Assembly (NCBI RefSeq): GCF_007741495.1
Contig: NZ_CP036262.1
Coordinates: forward strand, 2,604,001 to 2,668,000
Reading direction: 5' to 3'
DNA length: 64,000 nt
Source of the DNA: Roseimaritima multifibrata
GTDB taxonomy: Bacteria; Planctomycetota; Planctomycetia; Pirellulales; Pirellulaceae
The translations under genes and the position numbers were made by a program. Below the pieces are notes generated by a model. That model worked only from the letters and a program-made list of their open reading frames with translations. It searched no databases and was not told the origin of the DNA. Of this stretch, positions 16,061 through 39,404 are shown piece by piece. The number at the start of each line of letters is the position of its first letter. Within the stretch, counting starts at the first letter, position 1.

Positions 16061-16199
16061 GGGCGTCTCCGTTTATACGTGACGAAAAATATGGCTCCCC
16101 GCGCCCCTAAGTAAGCTTGTTATCGCGGAAGAAACATTGGCAAGCTCAATACGTCCATCATTGTTTTCTGTTTGATTCGACGAAGCTTGCTTGGGGGAG

Positions 16200-16312
16200 A
16201 GTGAACGCCTAGCCCGCTGGGCTAAAAGCACTGCACTCCGACTCGAATGAGCAGGGTTGAAACCCGTCACCTATAAATCGCACGTCCCCCGCGAAAGGCG
16301 ACACTCGCTAAA
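16200..16312. repeat. Copy of a dispersed intergenic repeat (cccgctgggctaaaagcac family)
   Basis: The segment containing cccgctgggctaaaagcac, then cgactcgaatgagcagg and tataaatcgcacgtcc closely matches segments at about 28588-28665 and 30865-30905. It sits between the methyltransferase and the convergent LapA-like gene. No coding content is seen in 16061-16315 beyond this repeat. Confidence 0.6.
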
Positions 16313-21272: not shown

Positions 21273-21435
21273 CGTAGATATTTAGCAGCCAAAAGCCTGG
21301 TCGGAATCGACAAGGAGGGCTGTAAGCCCGAAGGTGGTGCGACGTTGATAAGCACCTAGCCTCCGCAACGCGAATAGTGGCATCGTGACAATGCCGTAGC
21401 TCCGCCTCTCGGGCCGTGCGATTTATAAGTGAAGT

Positions 21436-21789
21436 AAGTCTGGCTCCCCTCGCCCCCAAGCGAGCTCTTTGGGGCGGAAGAAATCTCTGCTAGCTCATTG
21501 CGTGATCTCTGCCTCTTTCTTTGATTTAGTGGAGCTCGCTTGGGGGAGAGGGGCTGGGGGAGAGGGGGAGATTTCCAGGCGGCGATTTTGCAGCGAAGAG
21601 GCAGTGAACGCCTCGGATTTCAAGCGGTTATGCCACGCCTTGCCCAACGCTGTCGGCCCCTCTCCCCCAGCCCCTCTCCCCAAAAACAAGCCTTTGAATC
21701 GACCTTAATTGCATTAGCTGGCGAACCGTTGATCCAGTATCAAATCTGTTTTAAGCGAGCTTGTTTTGAGGGCGAGGGGAGCCAGACTT
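21436..21789. mobile_element. MITE-like repeat element, copy 1 (array A)
   Basis: A 354-bp element bounded by terminal inverted repeats aagtctggctcccctcgccc and its reverse complement. Inside lies a second inverted pair, gggggagaggggctggggga near the left and tctcccccagcccctctccc near the right. Its translations (for example a 79-residue frame with GRGAGGEG) repeat between copies but look like by-products of the palindromes. No transposase is encoded. Both ends are intact. Confidence 0.75.
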
Positions 21790-21879
21790 TCTATACTTGT
21801 AAATCTCATCGTCTCGGAGAGACGCTGCTATGGGATTGGATCTCATCGCCTCTCGGGCCGTGCGATTTATAAATGAAGT

Positions 21880-22233
21880 AAGTCTGGCTCCCCTCGCCCC
21901 CAAGCGAGCTCTTTGGGGCGGAAGAAATCTCTGCTAGCTCATTGCGTGATCTCTGCCTCTTTCTTTGATTTAGTGGAGCTCGCTTGGGGGAGAGGGGCTG
22001 GGGGAGAGGGGGGGATTTCCAGGCGGCGATTTTGCAGCGAAGAGGCAGTGAACGCCTCGGATTTCAAGCGGTTATGCCACGCCTTGCCCAACGCTGTCGG
22101 CCCCTCTCCCCCAGCCCCTCTCCCCAAAAACAAGCCTTTGAATCGACCTTAATTGCATTAGCTGGCGAACCGTTGATCCAGTATCAAATCTGTCTTAAGC
22201 GAGCTTGTTTTGAGGGCGAGGGGAGCCAGCCTG
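21880..22233. mobile_element. MITE-like repeat element, copy 2 (array A)
   Basis: Nearly identical to copy 1 over its whole length (differences such as agggggg for agggggag and tcttaagc for ttttaagc). The right end reads gggagccagcctgtcttc instead of gggagccagacttt, so the terminal repeat is slightly altered. It starts 444 bp after the start of copy 1. Confidence 0.75.
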
Positions 22234-22243
22234 TCTTCATATA

Positions 22244-22377
22244 TAGATCTCATCGCCTCTCGGTACGTGCGATTTCTTAATAAAGAAAGTCTGGCTCCCC
22301 TCGCCCCTAATAGATCTCATCGCCTCTCGGTACGTGCGATTTCTTAATAAAGAAAGTCTGGCTCCCCTCGCCCCTAA
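22244..22377. repeat. Perfect 67-bp tandem duplication covering a linker and the left end of copy 3
   Basis: The block starting tagatctcatcgcctctcgg occurs twice without mismatch at 22244-22310 and 22311-22377. Each copy includes the left terminal repeat of the element (agtctggctcccctcgcccc). The first is a truncated element left end only 24 bp long. It looks like a recent slippage or unequal recombination event. Confidence 0.85.
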
Positions 22378-22707
22378 GCGAGCTCTTTGGTGTGGACGAA
22401 ATCTCTGCTAGTTCGTTGCGTGATCTCTGCCTCTTTGTTTGATTTAGTGGAGCTTGCTTGGGGGAGAGGGGCTGGGGGAGAGGGGGAGATTTCCAGGCGG
22501 CGATTTTGCAGCGAAGAGGCAGTGAACGCCTCGGATTTCAAGCGGTTATGCCACGCCTTGCCCAACGCTGTCGGCCCCTCTCCCCCAGCCCCTCTCCCCA
22601 AAAACAAGCCTTTGAATCGACCTTAATTGCATTAGCTGGCGAACCGTTGATCCAGTATCAAATCTGTTTTAAGCGAGCTTGTTTTGAGGGCGAGGGGAGC
22701 CAGACTT
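22354..22707. mobile_element. MITE-like repeat element, copy 3 (array A)
   Basis: A full-length copy with both terminal inverted repeats (aagtctggctcccctcgccc; right end gagccagactt). The left part differs from copies 1 and 2 (tggtgtggacgaaatc, gtggagcttgcttggg) and agrees with the copies of array B near 38.2 kb, so this copy is a mosaic or closest to those. Confidence 0.75.
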
Positions 22708-23231
22708 ACTTCATTTATAAATCGCACGTCCTCCGAGGCGGAGAACTTGGCGAGTACGAGTCTCGGAGAGCCTCGCCTACGTGCGATTCCACCGGGCAGA
22801 AACCACCGTCGCCTGAGCGTGGACAGGACGGCCAATACGTCGCCAACGAACTTCGCGTCCCCCGCGAAAGAAACGCCCCTGAACGCTTAAAAGCGGGCCG
22901 GAAAGGTAAACAGGGCAAGATGAGCCGTCTGTGGGCGTTTCTCCGAGGCTTTGTCGCTCCCTGTTGTCCGTTGGGAGCCGGGAACCTGCAGGGCGTTGAG
23001 GAGGCGTTCGAGGCGTTTTGAACGCCATTTCGGATATTGGGCTTCCAAACCGACTGCAAAGCGTCTTTTCTCGCCCGTTTTTGGGCCTTCAGAATCGTTT
23101 TGAAACAAATATCCTGAATCTTCGTGAAAATCCGCAAGACCGTTGCAAGTTCACACGATAACTCAAACATCGGCGCGAGCTTTCGGCTTGTACCGCATTG
23201 TAGACGTGTCGACCCCAAGGAAGGATGTCGG
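22708..23231. other. Non-coding spacer between repeat array A and the lipoprotein gene
   Basis: It starts with repeat-derived sequence (tataaatcgcacgtcctcc, also at 39328 and 16282). Open frames cross from the repeat into this DNA but have no supported start or known domain, so I do not call them. The last 15 bp hold the ribosome binding site ccaaggaaggatg of the downstream gene. Confidence 0.4.
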
Positions 23232-27935: not shown

Positions 27936-28114
27936 CTAAACGCTCAGACGCGATGCGTCTGGGCGAGTGCCGCTGCCATCTGCGGGGCGATCTCTTTGCC
28001 GGTCGGCGCAAGCAGCTTGTAGGTTTAGTGATTGTCGCCTTTCGCTCGGGACGTTAGATCTATAGGTGACGGGGTTCCAGCCGTTGACGAGTCTACATGC
28101 GGCCGAGTGAAGAT
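27936..28114. repeat. Dispersed intergenic repeat element, copy upstream of the tandem array
   Basis: Contains ggcgcaagcagcttgtaggt, then tttagtgattgtcgcctttc, then tgacggggttccagccgttg. The same order of blocks occurs at 30588-30690. A small palindrome, cagacgcgatgcgtctg, lies near 27948. No coding content. Confidence 0.6.
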
Positions 28115-28570
28115 TTAGCTCGGAGGGCGGCAGATACTTGCCGGCGGTGCAAGCCGCCGAGTGGGTATTGTGAAAAGGAAAGCCCAGCGGGCGCCGGAAC
28201 GGCATCGCTATCGCTCTTTGGTCCGGCCTACTTTTGCTTTTGTGCGTACGCTCGCTAGGTTTCCTTCCTTAGCCCGGAGGGGGGCAGATACTTGCCGGCG
28301 GTGTAAGCCGCCGAGTGGGTATTGCGAGAAGGATTGCCAAGCGTCCGCCGGAACGGCATCGCTATCGCTCTTTGGTCCGGCCTACTTTTGCTTTTTAATG
28401 CGCACACTAGGTTTCCTTAGCCCGGAGGGCGGCAGATATTTGCCGGCGGTGTAAGCCGCCGAGTGGGTATTGCGAGAAGGATTGCCAAGCGTCCGCCGGA
28501 ACGGCATCGCTATCGCTCTTTGGTCCGGCCTACTTTTGCTTTTGTGCGTACGCTCGCTAGGTTTCTGTTG
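28115..28570. repeat. Tandem array of three units of about 150 bp
   Basis: Units begin at 28115, 28269 and 28417, each with ttagcccggagg or close, then ggcagatacttgccggcggt and aagccgccgagtgggtatt, then ggcatcgctatcgctctttg and gtccggcctacttttgcttt. The cttgccggcggtg/gccgccgag part is palindromic. Units 2 and 3 are nearly identical; unit 1 differs (tgtgaaaaggaaagcccagc). A partial unit also occurs at 30698-30745. Repeated short frames (about 80-100 aa) in it are not convincing genes. Confidence 0.8.
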
Positions 28571-28665
28571 GCTTACGCCAACGCCCGCTGGGCTAAAAGC
28601 ACTGCACCCAGGCTCGGATGGGCAGGGTTGAAATCGTCATTTATAGATTTCACGTCCTCGCGAAA
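28571..28665. repeat. Dispersed repeat (cccgctgggctaaaagcac family), second copy
   Basis: Matches the segment at 16200-16312 (cccgctgggctaaaagcac, gggcagggttgaaa, cgcgaaag) and 30834-30905 (gttggcttac-ccaacg). It abuts the 3' end of the DHDPS-family gene. Confidence 0.6.
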
Positions 28666-38055: not shown

Positions 38056-38130
38056 TCTTAGCGGATCGGCGCGAGCCGACCGGCAAGTACGTAATGATTT
38101 CGGGGCGGTGGCCGGACGGCTTGGGACCGT
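38056..38130. repeat. Diverged REP-like pair before array B
   Basis: ttcttagcggatcggcgcga with agccgaccggc near 38056-38088, and ggccggacggcttgggaccg near 38109-38129, resemble the REP core with changes. Together they can form a loose hairpin downstream of the FlgI-like gene. Confidence 0.5.
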
Positions 38131-38148
38131 GCGATTTAAAAATGAAGA

Positions 38149-38504
38149 AAGTCTGGCTCCCCTCGCCCCTAAGCGAGCTCTTTGGTGTGGACGAAATCTC
38201 TGGTAGTTCGTTGCGTGATCTCTGCCTCTTTGTTTGATTTAGTGGAGCTTGCTTGGGGGAGAGGGGCGGGGGGGGGGGGGGAGATTTCCAGGCGGCGATA
38301 TTGCAGCGAAGACGCGGTGAAAGCCTCGGATTTTAAGCGGTTGTGCCACGCCTTGCCCAACGCTGTCGGCCCCCTCTCCCCCAGCCCCTCTCCCCCAAAA
38401 CAAGCTTTTGAATCGACCTTAATTGAATTAGCTGGCGAACCGTTGATCCAGTATCAAACCTGTTTTAAGCGAGCTTGTTTTGAGGGCGAGGGGAGCCAGC
38501 CTGT
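38149..38504. mobile_element. MITE-like repeat element, copy 4 (array B)
   Basis: Same element as at 21436, with left end aagtctggctcccctcgccc. In place of ctgggggaga it has a run of G (around 38266-38281), a likely slippage change. The right end reads gagccagcctgtcttc as in copies 2 and 5. Terminal repeats are otherwise kept. Confidence 0.75.
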
Positions 38505-38556
38505 CTTCATATATAGATCTCATCGCCTCTCGGTACGTGCGATTTCTTAATAAAGA

Positions 38557-38912
38557 AAGTCTGGCTCCCCTCGCCCCTAAGCGAGCTCTTTGGTGCGGAA
38601 GAAATCTCTGCTAGCTCATTGTGTGATCTCTGCCTCTTTGTTTGATTTAGTGGAGCTTGCTTGGGGGAGAGGGGCTGGGGGAGAGGGGGAGATTTCCAGG
38701 CGGCGATATTGCAGCGAAGACGCGGTGAAAGCCTCGGATTTTAAGCGGTTGTGCCACGCCTTGCCCAACGCTGTCGGCCCCCTCTCCCCCAGCCCCTCTC
38801 CCCCAAAACAAGCCTTTGGATCGTACTTAATTGAATTAGCTGGCGAACCGTTGATCCAGTATCAAACCTGTTTTAAGCGAGCTTGTTTTGAGGGCGAGGG
38901 GAGCCAGCCTGT
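38557..38912. mobile_element. MITE-like repeat element, copy 5 (array B)
   Basis: Starts exactly 408 bp after copy 4 and shares its linker (tctcatcgcctctcggtacg, then gtgcgatttcttaataaag), so element plus linker form one tandem unit. The internal part shares gacgcggtgaaagcctcgg with copy 4. Confidence 0.75.
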
Positions 38913-38964
38913 CTTCATATATAGATCTCATCGCCTCTCGGTACGTGCGATTTCTTAATAAAGA

Positions 38965-39317
38965 AAGTCTGGCTCCCCTCGCCCCTAAGCGAGCTCTTTG
39001 GTGCGGAAGAAATCTCTGCTAGTTCGTTGCGTGATCTCTGCCTCTTTGTTTGATTTAGTGGAGCTTGCTTGGGGGAGAGGGGCTGGGGGAGAGGGGGAGA
39101 TTTCCAGTCGGCGATTTTGCAGCGAAGACGCGGTGAACGCCTCGAATTTCAAGCGATTATGCCACGCCTTGCCCAGCGCTGTCGGCCCCTCTCCCCCAGC
39201 CCCTCTCCCCCAAAACAAGCTTTTGAATCGACCTTAATTGAATTAGCTGGCGAACCGTTGATCCAGTATCAAACCTGTTTTAAGCGAGCTTGTTTTGAGG
39301 GCGAGGGGAGCCAGACT
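38965..39317. mobile_element. MITE-like repeat element, copy 6 (array B)
   Basis: Starts 408 bp after copy 5. It carries its own variants (tttccagtcggcgattttgc, cgcctcgaatttcaagcg). The right end is gagccagactgtcttc, followed by tataaatcgcacgcc, the sequence that also follows copy 3 in array A. A trailing REP half (gcgccgttccgctagga) ends at about 39361. Confidence 0.75.
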
Positions 39318-39404
39318 GTCTTCGTTTATAAATCGCACGCCATTGCGCCGTTCCGCTAGGAATTGGAGTTGCGATCGGCCTCCATTCGCTGCTGACGTCA
39401 CTGC

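Follow-up and report, generated by a model that had tools for sequence, protein, structure and literature searches.

Between a DUF1559 gene on one side and an open frame starting at position 23124 on the other, the 64,000-nucleotide stretch of Roseimaritima multifibrata DNA analysed here (the window) contains three near-identical repeat cores of 352 nt each, with complementary ends (array A, Table 1), confirming the original prediction of three copies with terminal inverted repeats. The terminal repeat of each core is AGTCTGGCTCCCCTCGCCC with its complement, and an inner inverted pair, TTGGGGGAGAGGGGCTGGGGGAGAGGGG and its complement, is 96% complementary at a spacing of 89 nt. The predicted 354-bp unit is real as a repeat but is not the whole element, which measures ca. 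404 bp in full and extends ca. 26 bp past each core end. Conservation beyond the cores reaches GGGACGTGCGATTTATAAATGAAGAA and its complement and then drops. The outer end has the consensus GGGACGTG[AC][AG]ATTTATAA, and this motif occurs 12 times in the window, compared with 0.12 occurrences expected from shuffles.

The 67-bp tandem duplication that precedes copy 3 is a slippage-type scar. Because the array units are near-identical and this scar is perfect, we read the array as having grown in tandem, by slippage or unequal exchange, following a single insertion. By our reading, a host palindrome, CCGGACGGC-TT/T-GC-GCCGTTCCG (the slash marking the element), also appears to flank array B, a second group of three cores at 38.1-39.3 kb, on both sides, with a diverged right end. 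The arm repeats create open frames of 110 and 187 amino acids in array A and two of 122 amino acids in array B, as had been anticipated, and the three of these frames that were scanned gave no Pfam match; annotators should be aware that such GRGAGGEG frames are not genes. Elsewhere in the window, positions 28115-28566 hold a REP-rich unit of 148 bp, present three times, inside another element with outer ends (Table 1).

Table 1. Positions of array A, its parts and its relatives in the window.
Feature	Positions	Strand	Remark
Left half of host REP palindrome: stem CTCCGCCTC (21400-21408) and loop bases TC	21400-21410		
Array A inserted block, from outer end GGGCCGTGCGATTTATAA to complement ...CACGTCCT	21411-22732	+	
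Outer end motif, copy 1	21411-21428	+	
Core copy 1, 352 nt; closing stem 21437-21455 with 21770-21788	21437-21788	+	
Arm A, stem 21458-21467 with 21532-21541	21458-21541	+	3 pairs changed on both sides
Arm M, 25-bp stem 21543-21567 with 21657-21681	21543-21681	+	10 of 22 sequences carry a change on both sides of one pair
Arm B, stem 21683-21691 with 21759-21767	21683-21767	+	Nearly invariant, hence uninformative on covariation
Core copy 2	21881-22232	+	
67-bp tandem duplication of left end, 100% identical, before copy 3	22243-22376	+	
Core copy 3	22355-22706	+	
Outer end motif, right end of array A	22715-22732	-	
Right half of host palindrome: C (duplicated middle loop base, as read), C, stem GAGGCGGAG	22733-22743		
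Array B inserted block; cores 38150-38502, 38558-38910 and 38966-39317	38123-39343	+	
Other element with the outer ends of array A, in a CTTTCGC..GCGAAAG palindrome	28048-28658		
Decayed relative: arm-A half of the element at left, outer end at right	16063-16288		

The core is dispersed throughout the 7.2-Mb genome, in which its 18-mer end is found 96 times in forward and 104 times in reverse orientation (up to 2 mismatches; reversed control 0), corresponding to ca. 100 core end pairs. At least 68 paired elements were delineated from 44 stretches, at a minimum of 51 loci of which nine are arrays of two to four, and these figures are lower bounds since the 68 elements were drawn from the first 100 of the 200 end motifs. 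Core lengths are 352 nt (35 elements), 337-339 (13), 351 or 353 (8), 344-345 (2), 324 (2), 126-127 (5) and 528-542 (3). The alignment attributes the 14-nt steps in length to the loss of one CCCCTCTCCCCCAG unit within an arm, and the 126-127-nt forms retain a single arm, either A or B. At one locus (L070:2344-2695), a 14-bp unit has been lost from one arm of stem M and gained in the other. Short, non-coding, present in many dispersed copies and bounded by terminal inverted repeats with ends in common, the element is MITE-like, in agreement with the original prediction.

The element was matched in 13 of 60 genomes (its own included). Among the matches listed, full-length copies occur only in the same-genus genome G002 (68-71%), and the others consist of the G-rich arm motif only. 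An exact 20-mer of the end had a single match in a collection of 84,980 species, from which close relatives may be missing; this lies in a coding frame of a Nitrospirota genome and is due to chance. The outer end is present in 100 copies in the own genome (46+54, with at most 1 mismatch; control 0) and was detected in 7 of 149 genomes of the family, with 20 copies in G002, 12 in G135, 8 in G160 and one or two in each of the remaining three. Many of the 100 sites in the own genome belong to several other non-coding elements, whose interiors are unrelated. The clearest of these is F2, a young sister family of the main element with a length of 293 bp; its 21 copies are at least 93% identical across 275 bp or longer, and for six of them the identity is reported as 100%.

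The folded core is a four-way junction, in which a 19-bp closing stem is joined to hairpins A (10 bp), M (25 bp) and B (9 bp) that nearly abut, with hardly any unpaired base between them. Thus the terminal and inner inverted pairs that had been predicted both exist, but there are four such pairs in all: the closing stem and arms A, M and B. RNA folding yields this junction with z-scores of -11.5 (+ strand) and -9.6 (- strand), and the fold obtained with DNA energies is identical (z -10.9). In the sister species (G002), the arms are ca. 70% identical and include some compensatory changes. Covariation was analysed in 26 sequences, 16 of them from the own genome (taken from an alignment of 60 of the 68 elements, 320-360 nt) and 10 from the 11 G002 loci, the eleventh (L111) being incomplete. 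Across these sequences 97.6% of the paired cells are retained as pairs. Changes on both sides affect 6 of 63 pairs and 31 cells, compared with 14.0 cells in shuffled data, and the covariation score of 0.075 exceeds that of the shuffles (0.051; 0/500) and falls to 0.028 or less when slid. Two of the five covariation measures are at the shuffle level, namely the existence of further pair types and the number of both-sides pairs itself, which at 6 versus 4.7 (106/500) is not above the shuffles. The clear cases are a G-C pair of the closing stem that has become T-A in 9 of the 10 G002 copies, an A-T pair of arm M that is now T-A and, in arm A, an A-T pair replaced by G-C. Taken at the level of the alignment, the arms appear to be preserved as pairs, mostly through sequence conservation. 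No Rfam family matched the element at its cut-off; weaker Rfam matches (102, with E values up to 10 and animal miRNA models leading) lie far below the cut-offs and were dismissed as a product of the G-rich inverted repeat. The original suggestion of a folded RNA or DNA unit rather than a plain MITE is supported in part, by the four-armed fold and the partial compensatory conservation of its arms; no result marks the element as an RNA, and the evidence from insertion sites is that of mobile DNA.

This evidence lies in the flanks of the elements. Outer-end elements lie in the middle of palindromes other than their own, usually separating the last two bases of a three-base loop, and the symmetry of these palindromes, together with unoccupied REP copies, points to a target-site duplication of 1 bp, the middle base of the loop. 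In F2 copies, the left flank consists of the stem followed by N1N2 and the right flank of N2N3 followed by the complement of the stem. N2 is repeated in 17 of the 19 F2 copies with a placed right end (our count) and 12 of 19 have, two bases away, a perfect stem of 5 bp or longer; this sample omits L171 and L172, whose right end was misplaced by the script. Against the rule, L125 and L167 have no stem at all, and L166 and L169 lack the same base. The F2 hosts comprise the REP palindromes CTCCGCCTC-TCC-GAGGCGGAG and CTTTCGC-TCC-GCGAAAG as well as non-REP palindromes (GATTTC-TA/AT-GAAATC, CGATGC-TT/TC-GCATCG and AATCGC-TC/CA-GCGATT), and array A lies in CTCCGCCTC-TC/CC-GAGGCGGAG. Unoccupied REP copies with a three-base loop are present as well, 6 of one kind and 21 of another (CTCCGCCTCTCCGAGGCGGAG) in the examined stretches of the own genome. 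Target-site duplications had been named as a check in the original prediction, and the flanks are read as a 1-bp duplication in the loop of the host palindrome.

The same marks are seen in the main family, for which the 68 elements were merged to 51 loci: flank complementarity is 5.45, compared with 4.18 in permuted flanks (10/10,000), and the same base is found in 25 of 51 loci versus 16.0 (19/5,000). When all end pairs are considered (60-2500 bp apart, up to 6 mismatches in total, repeats of identical flanks removed), the stem score in the own genome is 3.99 compared with 2.28 in permutations (n=82; sd 0.29; 0/10,000), and the same base is present in 35 of 82 versus 23.1 (17/10,000). In the other genomes (n=26), the stem score is 4.0 versus 1.5 (0/10,000) and the same base is present in 16 versus 7.2 (3/10,000), with the best register in both sets being two bases in on each side. 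Against the rule, 47 of the 82 own-genome pairs are without the same base and 45 have a stem score below 5; many of these may be old, nested or mispaired by the script. Both marks occur together in 28 of 105 distinct flank pairs, with loops GGA/TCC (11), GAA/TTC (7), TGA/TCA (4) and others (6), and the closing pair is C-G in 23 of these 28 sites. GNA loops closed by C-G form very stable DNA hairpins. At four loci (L086, L077, L146 and L132), the long left and right flanks are copies of a single palindrome arm, as though one flank had served as the template of the other.

It could be argued that the palindrome arms on either side belong to the element as its outer edge, so that a nested hairpin is copied as one unit and no hairpin is targeted. 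Long perfect same-arm flanks at some loci (scores of 15 for L086, 14 for L077 and 13 for L146) and the halves of the same palindrome that lie between the array copies suit this proposal, which is nevertheless quite unlikely, considering that the arm sequence varies by locus while the ends stay fixed, that several host palindromes are short and not REPs, that unoccupied REP copies with three-base loops exist and that the same-base mark exceeds permutation. Very unlikely is an origin by tandem amplification only, with arrays arising by slippage or unequal exchange, dispersal by REP-REP recombination and no transposase of the family; although the 67-bp scar and the loss of 14-bp arm units (lengths 352, 338 and 324) are of the kind that it predicts, it is opposed by the fixed outer ends and varied flanks of at least 51 dispersed loci and by F2 copies reported as 100% identical at different sites. 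An equally poor prospect is a four-armed structured non-coding RNA that is kept in many copies and is mobile only incidentally. The fold z-scores and the 31 both-sides cells agree with such an RNA, but the fold is the same with DNA energies and forms on both strands, as for any long inverted repeat, one-arm forms of 126-127 nt exist and Rfam gave no match at its cut-off.

The prediction that the window holds no transposase is borne out by a Pfam scan of 45 of its frames, none of which matched one; these were 42 of 46 chosen non-overlapping frames of at least 120 amino acids, four being left unscanned, and 3 others. A longer element with its own transposase, the finding that would have spoken against the original prediction, was looked for and not found, and no parent transposon with matching ends was detected among the PF01609, PF13701, PF00665 or PF01797 genes of the own genome (G000). 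In fact, none of the DDE_Tnp_1, DDE_Tnp_1_4, rve and Y1 genes of the own genome is bounded by outer ends. The one exception is an insertion sequence at L243 with an end-like motif on either side (3 mismatches in each); since these ends are absent from its second copy, L244, we read it as nested in a REP inside an outer-end element and rejected it as an autonomous form. PF01548 (IS110) had no match in G000, its control being positive in 4 of 14 genomes, and PF07592 likewise had none, with a control that was also silent. A 1.7-kb insertion (L083:2880-4585) contains a 538-amino-acid frame that had no meaningful match in Pfam or NCBIfam and may be an undescribed transposase. It was discounted as an autonomous form of the element, being a foreign insertion in one core, with ends TGGACTGTCAAAA rather than the outer ends and an apparent 9-bp repeat (GGCTGGGGG) within the core. 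In G135, a broken IS1380-like frame lies 235 bp inside an outer end without a matching right end (L192/L210), and at the candidate locus L204/L211 the start of another frame, which we take to resemble IS110, is located beside an assembly gap.

A Y1 (RAYT/IS200-like) transposase acting on single-stranded DNA of the lagging strand, the mechanism of REPINs, is unlikely to account for the elements, even though single-strand chemistry suits both foldback elements and hairpin targets, eight Y1_Tnp genes are present in the own genome and REP dimers within palindromes are described for other bacteria (PMC3733652). Seven of the eight Y1 genes have no outer end within 1.5 kb, and the eighth has one 1.1 kb away. 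Furthermore, element orientation has no two-arc pattern (permutation 1241/2000), and the loop strand is unbiased with respect to the replichore (16 of 33; the GC skew, as sampled, switches sign at about 3.5 Mb). This lack of bias in both tests counts against lagging-strand chemistry, and a lagging-strand preference was rejected. Joining of the IS200 type is also not expected to duplicate the target.

We consider it probable (ca. 0.7) that array A is a MITE-like foldback element, non-autonomous and amplified locally, that was moved in trans into the centre of a palindrome, with duplication of the middle loop base. A transposase acting in trans would recognise the outer end and place the element symmetrically in the middle of a palindrome able to extrude as a small hairpin, the target usually being a three-base loop closed by C-G whose middle base would be duplicated. 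Once inserted, the array would grow in tandem. Our first guess is that the enzyme is of the DDE type. That it is structure-specific, reading the tip of an extruded hairpin instead of sequence or a palindromic duplex, cutting either side of one loop base and inserting four-armed foldback DNA, is a possibility that we advance only tentatively. If true, palindromes would nest in palindromes, and non-coding elements whose interiors are unrelated would have one end pair in common, across several genera of a single bacterial family. The insertion rule would explain the stacked-palindrome look of such intergenic regions.

Nesting of this kind has precedents. REPs are known as targets of insertion sequences, among them members of the IS3, IS110, IS4, IS256 and IS5 families (Tobes and Pareja, 2006; PMC1525189), and REP dimers are known inside palindromes: GTAG-23 units lie within small palindromes with loops of 3-4 bases in T. 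roseum, GTAG-15 dimers within palindromes in A. variabilis and CGTC-1 dimers likewise in H. neapolitanus (Di Nocera et al., 2013; PMC3733652). REP dimers, or REPINs, and their RAYTs (GTAG and CGTC superfamilies) resemble the present elements as short non-coding foldback repeats nested with other palindromes. Compared with these, the element described here is ca. 404 bp long, has three internal arms and ends GGGACGTG..CACGTCCC, is read as making a 1-bp duplication and has no Y1 gene with these ends; the combination of two inverted REPs with a GTAG or CGTC foot and a flanked RAYT gene was not found. In the CGTC superfamily, CGTC is followed by an 8-9-bp stem beginning with AT and a loop of 4-5 bases (PMC3733652). 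Here CGTC occurs inside CACGTCCC, but the host palindrome follows in place of such a stem. The REP-targeting insertion sequences share the REP palindrome as target but are autonomous and are described as aiming at the REP of their own host (PMC1525189), whereas the present elements use many unrelated palindromes, and G000 has no DEDD transposase gene of the IS110 type by PF01548. TIRtrons, in which terminal inverted repeats flank tyrosine transposases, include gene-less families of long terminal inverted repeats (PMC3733652), but no Y1 gene of the own genome is flanked by outer ends. MITEs are likewise non-coding, dispersed, of high copy number and bounded by terminal inverted repeats; the present element differs in its branched interior, its palindrome-centre target and the parent transposon, none having been found here.

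In the open literature, we found no report of the element, its branched architecture or a 1-bp duplication at hairpin tips, and no account of one end pair common to unrelated foldback elements. Nesting in REP palindromes has been reported before, and no rule for its origin was found described. The rule proposed here (hairpin centre, one base duplicated) can be read from sequence, here as well as in other genomes of the family, and this opens the missing enzyme and its selection of targets to direct testing.

Palindrome centres are a common target in this genome: three of its resident insertion sequences likewise sit at hairpin tips. An IS4-family element of 469 amino acids is present in three copies that are 99-100% identical (L237-L239; G000 positions 1955654, 2843827 and 5554534), each in a hairpin tip, either of the GGGC-GCGA-GCCC type or GGC-GATA-GCC, and the 6 bp duplicated there have the loop at their centre. 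Two further multi-copy insertion sequences (L245-L246 and L243-L244) lie at REP hairpin tips; by our reading one duplicates 4 bp, equivalent to the GTAA loop, and the other 10 bp (GGCGTAAGCC), both centred on the tip. Finally, Y1 transposase genes at L153, L157 and L158 are flanked by REP repeats of the own genome, as in REPtrons, with a 42-bp inverted pair of the AAAAGTAGGCCGG repeat at L157.
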